A DNA stretch of 64,000 nt, from the NCBI GenBank assembly GCA_017517275.1, contig JAFWZX010000023.1, positions 1 through 64,000 of the forward strand, read 5' to 3'. Both the position numbers and the translations under genes were made by a program. The DNA comes from Clostridia bacterium (GTDB taxonomy: Bacteria; Bacillota; Clostridia; UBA1212; UBA1255). Below, piece after piece: positions 4,191-7,525 of this stretch (positions are counted from its first letter, which is position 1; each line of letters opens with the position of its first letter). The notes beneath the pieces were generated by a model that was not told the DNA's origin, did no database searches, and saw only the letters and a list, made by a program, of their open reading frames with translations.

Positions 4191-5183
4191 TTAAATTGAA
4201 AATCCCGGATCTTCTGGACCCGATACTTCACCGGACGTCAATATGCCTATAATTATCAGCAAAAGAAAACATGTAAAGACAATCCCGATTACAAGATTCT
4301 TTATACTCTTATGTCCTTTAATTTTGAGTATAATAAAGGCAATTATTGATGATTGAGGGAGCAAGAGTGAAAAATAATATGCAAACATCGTATTTACTCT
4401 GAATTCCTGAATTAAAATCTCATCAATGATCATTGCTATAATCCAAGACGCAATAGACAGTCCGAACGTTATCCATGAAAGGGCTTTAAGTCCTCCCGGA
4501 ACAGATTTTTCTTTTCTCTCTACTACCTGATATATGGGTTGCGTCGTTCCATACTGCTGTTGACGGTAAACCGGCTGTTGTATTGGTTGTCCATATGCTG
4601 CCGGGTGATACACAGGCTGACCGTACACAGGCTGACCGTACACAGGTTGACCGTACACAGGTTGACCGTAAACAGGCTGACCATATATTGGTTGCTGTTG
4701 CGGTTGAGCCGTTTGCTGTTGCGGTTGCGGCTGAGCTGCTTGCGGATTTACCGGCTGAGCTGCTTGCTGTTGCGGTTGCGGTTGAGCTACTTGCGGATTT
4801 ACCGGTTGAGCTGCTTGCTGTTGCGGTTGCGGTTGAGCTACTTGCGGATTTACCGGTTGAGCTGCTTGCGGATTTACCGGTTGAGTGTATATAGGAACGT
4901 ACTGTGGTTGAGGACGAGGTGAAACCGGCGGTACGTGATGTACAGGCTGTACCGGTTGTGCAGTCTGCGTTGGCTGCACTTCAATCGGTTTATCATTCAA
5001 AAGCGCGTCAACACTAATACCAAATACTTGTTCAATTTTTACTAACTCTTCTACTCTTGGAAGAGCTTTGTGCATTTCCCAATCGTCAACAACCGTTGGC
5101 TGAATGTCTAACTTCTCAGCAAATTGCTGTATAGTTAAGCCCATAGATATTCTATAGTCATGAATTTTATCTCCTAACATCAT
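4191..5183 (-). CDS. XRE-type HTH protein with Q/P-rich repeats and three membrane segments
   Basis: A 330-residue membrane-bound presumed regulator. Residues 4-63 form a Cro/C1-type helix-turn-helix (LGDKIHDYRISMGLTIQQFA onward). Residues 68-220 are a low-complexity linker. It contains three 17-residue units of the type QAAQPVNPQVAQPQPQQ and then five tandem YGQPV units. Three hydrophobic segments follow at about 234-256, 266-287 and 296-316, with a short charged tail. This places the DNA-binding domain in the cytoplasm tethered to the membrane by a flexible arm. The start overlaps the stop of the upstream small gene (ATGA), so the two are translationally coupled. The target operator and signal are unknown. 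Confidence 0.8.
   Translation of the reverse strand: MMLGDKIHDYRISMGLTIQQFAEKLDIQPTVVDDWEMHKALPRVEELVKIEQVFGISVDALLNDKPIEVQPTQTAQPVQPVHHVPPVSPRPQPQYVPIYTQPVNPQAAQPVNPQVAQPQPQQQAAQPVNPQVAQPQPQQQAAQPVNPQAAQPQPQQQTAQPQQQPIYGQPVYGQPVYGQPVYGQPVYGQPVYHPAAYGQPIQQPVYRQQQYGTTQPIYQVVERKEKSVPGGLKALSWITFGLSIASWIIAMIIDEILIQEFRVNTMFAYYFSLLLPQSSIIAFIILKIKGHKSIKNLVIGIVFTCFLLLIIIGILTSGEVSGPEDPGFSI
4606..4680 (-). repeat. 15-bp tandem repeat encoding YGQPV
   Basis: About five copies of a 15-base unit (CCGTACACAGGCTGA with minor variants). Because the unit is a multiple of three, copy-number change keeps the frame of the XRE protein. Confidence 0.9.
4716..4868 (-). repeat. 51-bp tandem repeat encoding a 17-residue Q/P unit
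   Basis: Three nearly identical 51-base units. On the + strand each reads as tgcggatttaccgg followed by a GCTGTTGCGGTTGCGG stretch. They encode residues 106-156 of the XRE membrane protein and are in frame with it. Confidence 0.85.
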
Positions 5184-5404
5184 GATTTACCCTCCGAGTC
5201 TATCTTATCTTGCGTGTCAGAGGCTGTCTCCTCTGTTATTTCAACATTCTCTTTTGCTTCATTATCATAATCCTCTGAATTCGCCCATTTATCCACCTTA
5301 TGAGCCGCAGTGGATGCTGACTTTACAATAGATTTACCAAGATTTTTAAATGCGTGGCCTAAGCCAACTCCTGTTGTTTTCCATGAATCTTTCAAATCGC
5401 CCAT
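5180..5404 (-). CDS. Small conserved-looking charged protein, coupled to XRE membrane protein
   Basis: A 74-residue soluble protein starting MGDLKDSWKTTGVGLGHAF. The first half is an amphipathic, basic, Gly-rich stretch (KNLGKSIVKSASTAAHKVDKW) and the second half is strongly acidic. The ATG at 5404 is chosen because AGGAG lies 8 bases upstream; a GTG nine bases earlier overlaps that ribosome site. Its stop overlaps the start of the downstream XRE gene by ATGA. I recall similar short LKDSW..TG.G proteins in Clostridia but know no function. It may interact with the membrane or with the partner regulator. Confidence 0.65.
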   Translation of the reverse strand: MGDLKDSWKTTGVGLGHAFKNLGKSIVKSASTAAHKVDKWANSEDYDNEAKENVEITEETASDTQDKIDSEGKS

Positions 5405-5434
5405 CTTAATCACTCCTAAATATTATCTGCTTAT

Positions 5435-5469: not shown

Positions 5470-7464
5470 TTATTGATTACTTACAATCCATCTGATAGTT
5501 TCCGGCATAACCTTATAATTTCTGACAAAAATACTATATAATTCTCTTTTATCCAAAGCAGCTTCTTGACAACCAATCTCAATTGTTACGGAAGGTATAC
5601 CAAGATATTCCATTACCCAATCCTTATACCCTGCGCCGTCAACACCGTAACTCGTGGCAAGAATATATCCGCTTACACTCTTTACAGACTGAGCCAAACT
5701 CTTGGATAAACTATTTACGGGTTCCTTATTGCCATATTCATAATATATTATACTACCTGTAGCATGATAACTAATAGTAACGTCGAAGTCATATTTCAAT
5801 GTGTAGTCGCGTAAAGCTTTGGCCTCTGCACTTGAGAATGGTGCCGTGCCTCCGTATAGTTCCGACGAAGGTGCTTTACGCTCATCTTTATTTTCACCCC
5901 AACCGGCAGGGAAATTTCGGTTGATATCAACACCAAGGGCATTTGCCTTCCATTTTTCAGTATATAAAGCCTGTGAAAAAGACGTATATTTTAATTTTTT
6001 ATCGTTTTGATATATTTTTAACTGAGAGGAGTTAAGCTTGCCCGTCTGAGAAATAACCACTCCGTCAGGATTGCTCATCGGAATAATATGGAAACAAACG
6101 TCGTCATAATCTGTAATATTGTAAATACACCAGTACTCTGCCATAGACATTAAAAGCCATGACGTCAGATGTTCTCTTGCATGAATGCCGCCTTGAATAA
6201 GAATCTGGTGCTTTGCGTTTTTATTGCCGATAATGATAACAGGAATATTCCTTTTCTCCTCGCTCCTGCCTATAGCTTCCGTCTTAGCTATGCTACTGTA
6301 TTTATTACAAATGGCATTAATATCTCTGCACATTTCTTCATATGAATAAGCTCCTGTTTGCTCTACGATTGACAAAGCGTCGAGGAAAGCCCCTTTAGCC
6401 TCTGTTTGATAATCCGGGTCAATAGTAAATGAAGGCTTTATAAAACTGCTCATTACGTAACCGATTTTATTCTTATACTCTACCTTTGCGAACTTTCCGT
6501 ACCATTCAAGAAGCGTGAAGGTAGATCCCTTATAAATTTTTGCAAGAACTTTAGCTGTAGTATTTGCGCTTCTTCTCAAATTGATATATTCATCACAATT
6601 TGCTTCCCATACAACCGGAATAGACGGATCGAACGTATCATCCACGTCGTATTCTTTCTCATCAGCATAATGCCACCATTCTTTGCTGTATCCCTTAAAG
6701 CCATGCTTTTCCATTACCGTCTCAAGCAAAACAGCATTTGCAGCGGCTTCTGTGCTTACATCACTATAATTTCTATCTGCTTTAGAGGAAAAATCGTCAA
6801 AATTTGACGGCATAACCAATTGTTTACCTGTAGTCAAATCAAACAGCGTCAAGTCAACTGCGCCGCCGCGGCAGTGAGATCGATTGCCGGTAACAGGATG
6901 TGATACGTAATTCGTATCAGGACAGATATCCCACAGTGCCTGTTGCGCGGAAACCGGTCTGAATCCGTCCCAGATAAGAATGCCAAGTCCTTTTCCCTTA
7001 AGTTCTTCCACAACAGCTGCTAATTTTTTTACAGTACCGTATCTTAAATACGTTTGCTGGAAGTCGTAAATTCTTTTTCCCGTGAAATTATCCTTCGTAG
7101 CATACATCAGATATTCTTTTGCATCGGGAATATATTCAAGTACGCGAACAAAAGCCGCATCACTGATGCCTGTATCGGGAGTCGGTTTCGGCGTAGCGGC
7201 AGGACTTGCAGTAGGACTTAATGCAGGTGTAACGCTCGGTGTTATACTGTGAGTCGGAGTCTCTATAGGAGTCATTGTCGCAACCTCCGTAGCTGATGGC
7301 GTTAACGTTAAATTACTCGTTGCAGTTGCTTGTAAGGAAGGTGTGCTATGGGCCGACGGAACTACCGTAGAATCGGCAGGCTGACTATTATGGCAGCCTC
7401 CGAAAAAAATCACAGCAGACAATATGAAAAAAAAGATTAAAACTAATCCCTTTATCTTCTTCAC
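5470..7464 (-). CDS. Lipoprotein with VanX-like dipeptidase, SH3 and M14 carboxypeptidase domains
   Basis: A 664-residue exported wall-peptide hydrolase. Residues 1-24 form a lipoprotein signal with lipobox FGGC (Cys24). Residues 30-98 are a Ser/Thr/Pro linker. Residues 100-275 match the M15D/VanX D-Ala-D-Ala dipeptidase family: SHCRGGAVD supplies zinc ligands His198 and Asp204, and KEWWH supplies Glu262 and His265. Residues 285-345 are a bacterial SH3 domain (YINLRRSAN, IGYVMSSFIKP). Residues 350-664 are an M14 zinc carboxypeptidase with HARE (His428, Glu431), DINRNFP, YHATG (His567) and catalytic Glu629 in VTIEIG, as in gamma-D-glutamyl-diaminoacid peptidases. The GTG start has GGAGGT five bases upstream. 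All catalytic residues of both enzymes are present, so one protein could trim both D-Ala-D-Ala and gamma-D-Glu bonds. Confidence 0.9.
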   Translation of the reverse strand: MKKIKGLVLIFFFILSAVIFFGGCHNSQPADSTVVPSAHSTPSLQATATSNLTLTPSATEVATMTPIETPTHSITPSVTPALSPTASPAATPKPTPDTGISDAAFVRVLEYIPDAKEYLMYATKDNFTGKRIYDFQQTYLRYGTVKKLAAVVEELKGKGLGILIWDGFRPVSAQQALWDICPDTNYVSHPVTGNRSHCRGGAVDLTLFDLTTGKQLVMPSNFDDFSSKADRNYSDVSTEAAANAVLLETVMEKHGFKGYSKEWWHYADEKEYDVDDTFDPSIPVVWEANCDEYINLRRSANTTAKVLAKIYKGSTFTLLEWYGKFAKVEYKNKIGYVMSSFIKPSFTIDPDYQTEAKGAFLDALSIVEQTGAYSYEEMCRDINAICNKYSSIAKTEAIGRSEEKRNIPVIIIGNKNAKHQILIQGGIHAREHLTSWLLMSMAEYWCIYNITDYDDVCFHIIPMSNPDGVVISQTGKLNSSQLKIYQNDKKLKYTSFSQALYTEKWKANALGVDINRNFPAGWGENKDERKAPSSELYGGTAPFSSAEAKALRDYTLKYDFDVTISYHATGSIIYYEYGNKEPVNSLSKSLAQSVKSVSGYILATSYGVDGAGYKDWVMEYLGIPSVTIEIGCQEAALDKRELYSIFVRNYKVMPETIRWIVSNQ

Positions 7465-7496: not shown

Positions 7497-7525
7497 ATTA
7501 TAAACAAAGATCGGCTTTTTTTCAA
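7497..7525 (-). promoter_or_regulatory. Promoter for the VanX/M14 lipoprotein
   Basis: TTGAAA (7520-7525), 17 bases, TATAAT (7497-7502) on the - strand, 33 bases before the GTG start. Confidence 0.75.

Follow-up and report, generated by a model that had tools for sequence, protein, structure and literature searches.

A lipoprotein-like protein of a Clostridia bacterium joins VanX-like M15D, SH3 and M14 domains and may trim cell-wall peptides

What is known of VanX-like enzymes comes mostly from their intracellular part in glycopeptide resistance, and we take PcgL to be another member of the VanX family. M15D is the name of the VanX subfamily (PMC8698665), and the source on PcgL describes it as a periplasmic D-Ala-D-Ala dipeptidase that enables Salmonella to live on D-Ala-D-Ala as its sole carbon source (PMC3760250). 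The portions of a 2019 survey of wall hydrolases that concern the M14 and M15 families state that (i) MpaA, an M14 enzyme, cleaves the gamma-D-Glu-mDAP bond; (ii) VanXYC, whose fold is related to M15, accepts both di- and pentapeptides; and (iii) the additional catalytic domains of M15 proteins include transpeptidase, S11 and NlpC/P60, with the corresponding entry for M14 given as "none" (PMC6403190). Thus, both enzymes, as well as the fusion of M15 to another wall enzyme, are already known, whereas the pairing of M15D with M14 described here looks new.

In the window, by which we mean the whole 64,000-nucleotide stretch of DNA analysed, a GTG-started open reading frame encodes a lipoprotein-like protein of 664 residues with three domains, M15D, SH3 and M14 (Table 1). 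A GGAGG ribosome-binding site, read from the sequence, precedes the GTG start on the minus strand (ACTTGGAGGTATAGGGTGAAG). Promoter-like sites in the region were overall not above chance (11 found vs 8.7 +/- 2.8 in the consensus scan), and no RNA family reached gathering thresholds within the window. The Pfam matches were (i) Peptidase_M15 (PF01427) at residues 104-278 (3.6e-35, 122 bits, cut-off 27); (ii) SH3_3 at residues 294-342 (3e-7, 31 bits, cut-off 27); and (iii) Peptidase_M14 (PF00246) at residues 382-635 (1.4e-41, 143.5 bits, gathering cut-off 21.6). As each score exceeds its curated cut-off, chance is ruled out as the source of the three domain calls. The lipobox cysteine, assigned by pattern, is C24 in FGGC, with a phenylalanine at -3 that lies outside the strictest consensus, and the orthologue in a second species of the genus (G008) has IAGC. 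From these sequence features, the protein is probably exported and surface-located as a lipoprotein.

Table 1. Features of the fusion gene and its upstream region, in window coordinates
Feature	Position	Strand	Basis
Promoter-like site, TTGAAA-17-TATAAT	7497..7525	-	Consensus scan, 11/12, best of the region; not evidence of function
Whole gene, lipoprotein with M15D, SH3 and M14	5470..7464	-	Open reading frame, Pfam, same-locus orthologue in G008
Lipoprotein-type signal peptide, residues 1-24, lipobox FGGC	7393..7464	-	Sequence, hydrophobic segment, lipobox pattern
Ser/Thr/Pro-rich linker, residues 25-98	7171..7392	-	Sequence; little conserved
M15D VanX/DdpX-like zinc dipeptidase domain (predicted), residues 99-284	6613..7170	-	Pfam, alignment, model and fold search
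Bacterial SH3 domain, residues 285-345	6430..6612	-	Pfam SH3_3 294-342; 75% identity to G008
M14 zinc peptidase domain (predicted), residues 365-664, K614 in GYKDW	5473..6372	-	Pfam, alignment; low-confidence model

The upstream neighbours of the fusion gene are plsY and redox genes, and the neighbourhood gives no functional hint. On the other side, a 77-residue open reading frame (window 5180-5413, minus strand) lies between the lipoprotein gene and a gene for an HTH_3 protein (4191-5183, minus strand) that has a long Gln/Pro-rich repeat of the QPVYGQ type and C-terminal hydrophobic segments. An open reading frame partly similar to this HTH_3 gene adjoins the fusion in G008.

The M15D domain shares with VanX (1r44) and DdpX-type dipeptidases the fold, the arginine, the three zinc ligands and the catalytic glutamate. 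In the alignment with 1r44 (E 2.6e-22), R169, H197, D204, E262 and H265 fall on VanX R71, H116, D123, E181 and H184, so that the pattern Arg, His-x6-Asp, Glu-x2-His is present at the VanX positions; the roles of these residues (three zinc ligands, catalytic Glu, and Arg) are those we assume from established VanX knowledge. The fusion differs from the VanX and DdpX enzymes in being probably exported, in being fused, and in scoring below both equivalog cut-offs (96.7 of 320 bits for the VanX model NF033115, and 144.9 of 176 bits for the DdpX-type model NF007557), and its loop ahead of the first zinc ligand is shorter than in VanX. On these scores, the domain is nearer the DdpX-type model than the VanX model, passing neither. 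Its predicted structure (built from five sequences; mean pLDDT 82.4, pTM 0.84) had VanX 1r44 as the best match in a fold search (TM 0.76, E 2.1e-14), with VanY, VanXY and LdcB at about 0.4-0.5; in the model, the fold is nearer VanX than VanY/VanXY. This proximity, together with a Pfam VanY score of 19.9 that lies under the cut-off of 25, argues against a reading in which the M15 domain would work on intact stem peptides in a D,D- or L,D-carboxypeptidase-like manner and the M14 domain would trim further, the cell's own wall being remodelled and not fed upon. We hold this wall-editing reading to be possible yet doubtful; in its favour are the two kinds of substrate taken by the related VanXYC fold (PMC6403190) and the repeated joining of M15D to YkuD-type domains in exported proteins.

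The M14 domain shares its zinc ligands, catalytic glutamate and Asn-Arg pair with carboxypeptidases T and B and with MpaA. By alignment, the zinc ligands H428, E431 and H567, the general base E629, and the carboxylate binders N515 and R516 are all present, their roles being presumed from established carboxypeptidase A knowledge. For the equivalent of carboxypeptidase A Arg127, no unambiguous alignment column was seen, and the region is modelled with low confidence. The fusion differs from MpaA in reaching 17.4 of the 157 bits at which the MpaA-type gamma-D-Glu-mDAP amidase model (NF007897) makes its cut-off. The predicted structure is weak (mean pLDDT 63.5) and too poor for judging geometry; its fold matches include carboxypeptidases T, A and B. 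By sequence, the closest solved relatives are carboxypeptidases T and B, not MpaA. K614 lies in the GYKDW motif, at a position held by Lys or Arg (G-Y-[K/R]-D-W) in 18 of the 21 M14 rows and which, in our own reading of the alignment, we take to correspond to carboxypeptidase A position 255, presumably a specificity position. Eight of the same 21 rows retain the Asn-Arg pair, which the other 13 lack.

The M14 domain may be a general carboxypeptidase, since it belongs to a long-branch clade, keeps the Asn-Arg pair and has carboxypeptidases T and B as its solved relatives. The last two of these points would also favour a role in general nutrition, in which a carboxypeptidase T/B-like M14 would process dietary or community peptides and M15D would serve as a general D,D-dipeptidase. 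We judge this improbable, as the SH3 domain lies between the two enzymes and GYKDW is common to M14 proteins linked to LysM or PG_binding_1. That either M15D or M14 has lost its catalytic activity and acts in binding is very unlikely: the Arg127 equivalent that could not be assigned and the low-confidence stretch before the Asn-Arg pair would speak for a dead M14, but zinc ligands and catalytic glutamates are kept in both species and purifying selection on the two domains is equal.

The G008 orthologue has the same three domains, 64% identity over residues 45-662, and the same neighbouring genes. Identity is 66% in M15, 75% in SH3, 67% in M14, and 31% in the signal plus linker, and every tested catalytic residue is identical between the two proteins. 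The lipobox is present in both, its cysteine being offset by one in the alignment. Comparison of the two species gives a pN of 0.23 for M15 and 0.22 for M14, far below a pS that is saturated at 0.79 and 0.77, respectively, and both enzyme domains are therefore under purifying selection. An assembly artefact was considered and is ruled out, as the fusion recurs in G008 within a conserved gene neighbourhood. These comparisons bear out the sequence observation of the first-pass annotation and part of its interpretation. Its single lipoprotein with VanX-like, SH3 and M14 domains is borne out by three Pfam matches over cut-off and a lipobox; the zinc and catalytic residues that it read in both enzymes align with known sites and are kept in G008; and signal and lipobox agree with a probable surface location, a role in wall peptides being likely as well. 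Its VanX-like label holds at the level of the M15 family (PF01427) and of the M15D active site, whereas the cut-off of the VanX equivalog was not reached, and structure prediction supports a VanX-like M15 fold but yields only the weak M14 model.

The M15-M14 fusion was found in two of 31 genomes in the order-level search (G000 and G008), in at least two of 391 genomes of a class sample, and in at least one of 398 genomes of a phylum sample (threshold 1e-45), the last being the window's own genome. The class and phylum counts are lower bounds because few candidates per genome were scored (at most three among the matches listed), so that divergent fusions could escape. Within these 391 class and 398 phylum genomes, no fusion was found outside this genus. 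The EWWH motif is absent from six long M14 reading frames of the class sample (486-798 aa), a check that did not extend to the long M15 reading frames in G185 and G396. No phage or plasmid record matches 80% of the query at a single locus, and a scan of named genomes returned one distant locus, in Porphyromonas levii. An M15-M14 or M15D-M14 fusion was absent from the titles and abstract openings of the literature searched. In the window genome (1.59 Mb, 38 contigs, 79.8% complete), this gene is the sole M15 place as well as the sole M14 place. G008 additionally encodes a separate M14 protein with PG_binding_1 and LysM.

The closest relatives of the M14 half are SH3-M14 lipoproteins of another family (L039 and L038, from G043 and G079, two of the two genomes searched), which share with the fusion the M14 clade, an SH3 domain and a lipoprotein-like signal. 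They differ in being without M15 and in having their Pfam-matched SH3 further N-terminal, with a second SH3-like stretch aligning with the SH3 of the fusion. Within the M14 tree, the domain of the fusion clusters with these proteins at 100/99 support and not with the stand-alone M14s of its own family, one of which is present in G008; it belongs to a clade that sits on a long branch away from the PG_binding_1/LysM M14s. In the M15 tree, it lies inside a clade of nine rows (91/89) containing the family's M15D lipoproteins, its nearest row being L040, with weak support (82/81). In genus g2, from the same family as the window, four of five genomes encode an M15D protein without M14, in one case in frame with a GNAT domain, and there are separate M14 proteins as well. 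Although the trees include several weak or open forks plus long branches, their simplest reading suggests that, in the genus of the fusion, an SH3-M14 lipoprotein gained an exported M15D domain in front.

The M15 tree set comprises 25 proteins, these being all M15 relatives in the loci used for trees and not every class-sample match. A strong hydrophobic, export-like segment precedes the domain in 23 of them, and 11 have a lipobox pattern. EWWH is present in 25/25 and the simple zinc pattern in 24/25, the exception (L047) having Ala in place of Gly, with His and Asp retained. The first-pass annotation had called an external VanX-like enzyme unusual, which is overstated in view of these export-like segments and of the periplasmic PcgL (PMC3760250). 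As for partners, two of the 25 carry M14, six YkuD, two PGA_cap and one a zf-HC2 zinc finger; one has an in-frame GNAT, one a sub-threshold DUF1801, and 12 stand alone.

The fusions of M15D with YkuD occur in both orders (L043, L045, L046, L051 and L054, with YkuD first in L012:1549-3066, where its score of 23.0 is just under the Pfam cut-off of 23.4). Like the fusion described here, L043, L045, L046, L051 and L054 combine an exported M15D with a second type of wall-peptide enzyme; unlike it, they have YkuD as the partner and not M14, and an M15-transpeptidase combination is already given in the part of the 2019 survey that treats M15 (PMC6403190). PGA_cap, too, is found on either side of M15D across L058 and L063 (matched by Pfam) and L108 (read by eye). 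In G003 (L005:1480-2667, minus strand), one open frame runs through a RimI-like GNAT domain and an M15D lipoprotein, which could reflect either a genuine fusion or a lost stop. In L106:3081-4825 (G335:C25, minus strand), a zf-HC2-transmembrane-M15D gene overlaps that of an ECF-type sigma factor; in the anti-sigma-like protein that the former encodes, the VanX-like domain is predicted to lie outside and the zinc residues are kept, and the protein might sense D-Ala-D-Ala-type peptides. The full zf-HC2-transmembrane-M15D form was found in one of 295 genomes of that order, G335 only. M15D-like genes are also present on contigs filed as viral (L082, L083 and L084, with two M15-like open reading frames in L083) and in a phage record (MT835750.1:4086-4598).

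We propose, with a probability of roughly 45%, that the fusion is a surface-anchored, two-enzyme trimmer or scavenger of cell-wall (stem) peptides. The lipid would anchor the protein at the outer face of the membrane, and the flexible linker and SH3 domain would position both enzymes in the wall. There, M15D would, like DdpX and PcgL, cleave free dipeptides of the D-Ala-D-Ala type; M14 would act at the stem-peptide diamino acid, either at the gamma-D-Glu-mDAP bond or on a diamino acid at the C-terminus. Wall fragments that have been released would in this way become amino acids for import or reuse. The MurE of the window genome carries a DNPR motif, which we take to be expected for meso-diaminopimelate (mDAP) walls, and two Pfam-tested M14 relatives, L017 and L048, carry LysM or PG_binding_1. 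The trimmer or scavenger reading is favoured because (i) the domains and catalytic residues are intact and the orthologue is conserved under purifying selection; (ii) the M15 model matches VanX, MurE has DNPR, and a basic residue occupies the G-Y-[K/R]-D-W position; and (iii) M14 relatives carry LysM or PG_binding_1 and M15D is repeatedly fused to exported wall-related domains. Against it stand the M15 scores below both equivalog cut-offs, the features by which M14 may be a general carboxypeptidase, the Arg127 equivalent that could not be assigned, the uninformative neighbourhood, and the external source of free D-Ala-D-Ala that it presupposes. External use of D-Ala-D-Ala by M15D is plausible because of the precedent of PcgL, which is likened here by its description and not by sequence: like the fusion, where this is predicted, PcgL is a D-Ala-D-Ala dipeptidase outside the cytoplasm, and it differs in being described as periplasmic, with no M14 partner mentioned in that description (PMC3760250). 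The initial proposal that stem peptides are attacked from both ends is possible under the trimmer or scavenger reading, but it depends on an M14 specificity that we infer only.

That the protein is a factor in glycopeptide resistance or susceptibility, as the first-pass annotation had also suggested, is hard to credit. Beyond the naming of M15D as the VanX subfamily (PMC8698665), which would favour it, the protein is probably exported, the sole above-cut-off ligase is of the D-Ala-D-Ala type by motif, and the neighbours are ordinary genes. In the ~80% complete genome, the ligase search gave one match over the family cut-off, on another contig, and a second far under it. The former has an FYDYDDKY region, presumably that of ordinary D-Ala-D-Ala ligases. 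Among the neighbours checked for a vanHAX-type cluster, no D-Ala-D-Lac ligase lies beside the vanX-like gene. Nor would an enzyme outside the cell deplete the D-Ala-D-Ala of the cytoplasm, and a resistance role is unsupported. A resistance cassette was considered as a separate candidate and is rejected in view of the apparently ordinary D-Ala-D-Ala-type ligase of the ~80% complete genome, the plsY and redox neighbours, and the probable export.

A wider reading, which we offer as speculative and unlikely, is that exported M15D is a mobile surface module repeatedly paired with diamino-acid-proximal enzymes (M14 and YkuD) and even with an anti-sigma zinc finger; its substrate would be a wall-derived D-amino-acid peptide serving as food and signal, and the fusion would be a two-cut stem-peptide machine. 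Among the VanX-like proteins examined in one class, most look exported, and they occur in combination with other wall-peptide enzymes; this points to a broader everyday role for VanX-like enzymes. The M15D-M14 pairing would offer a simple test system for what such enzymes cut, and it cautions that a VanX-like match is not automatically a resistance gene.
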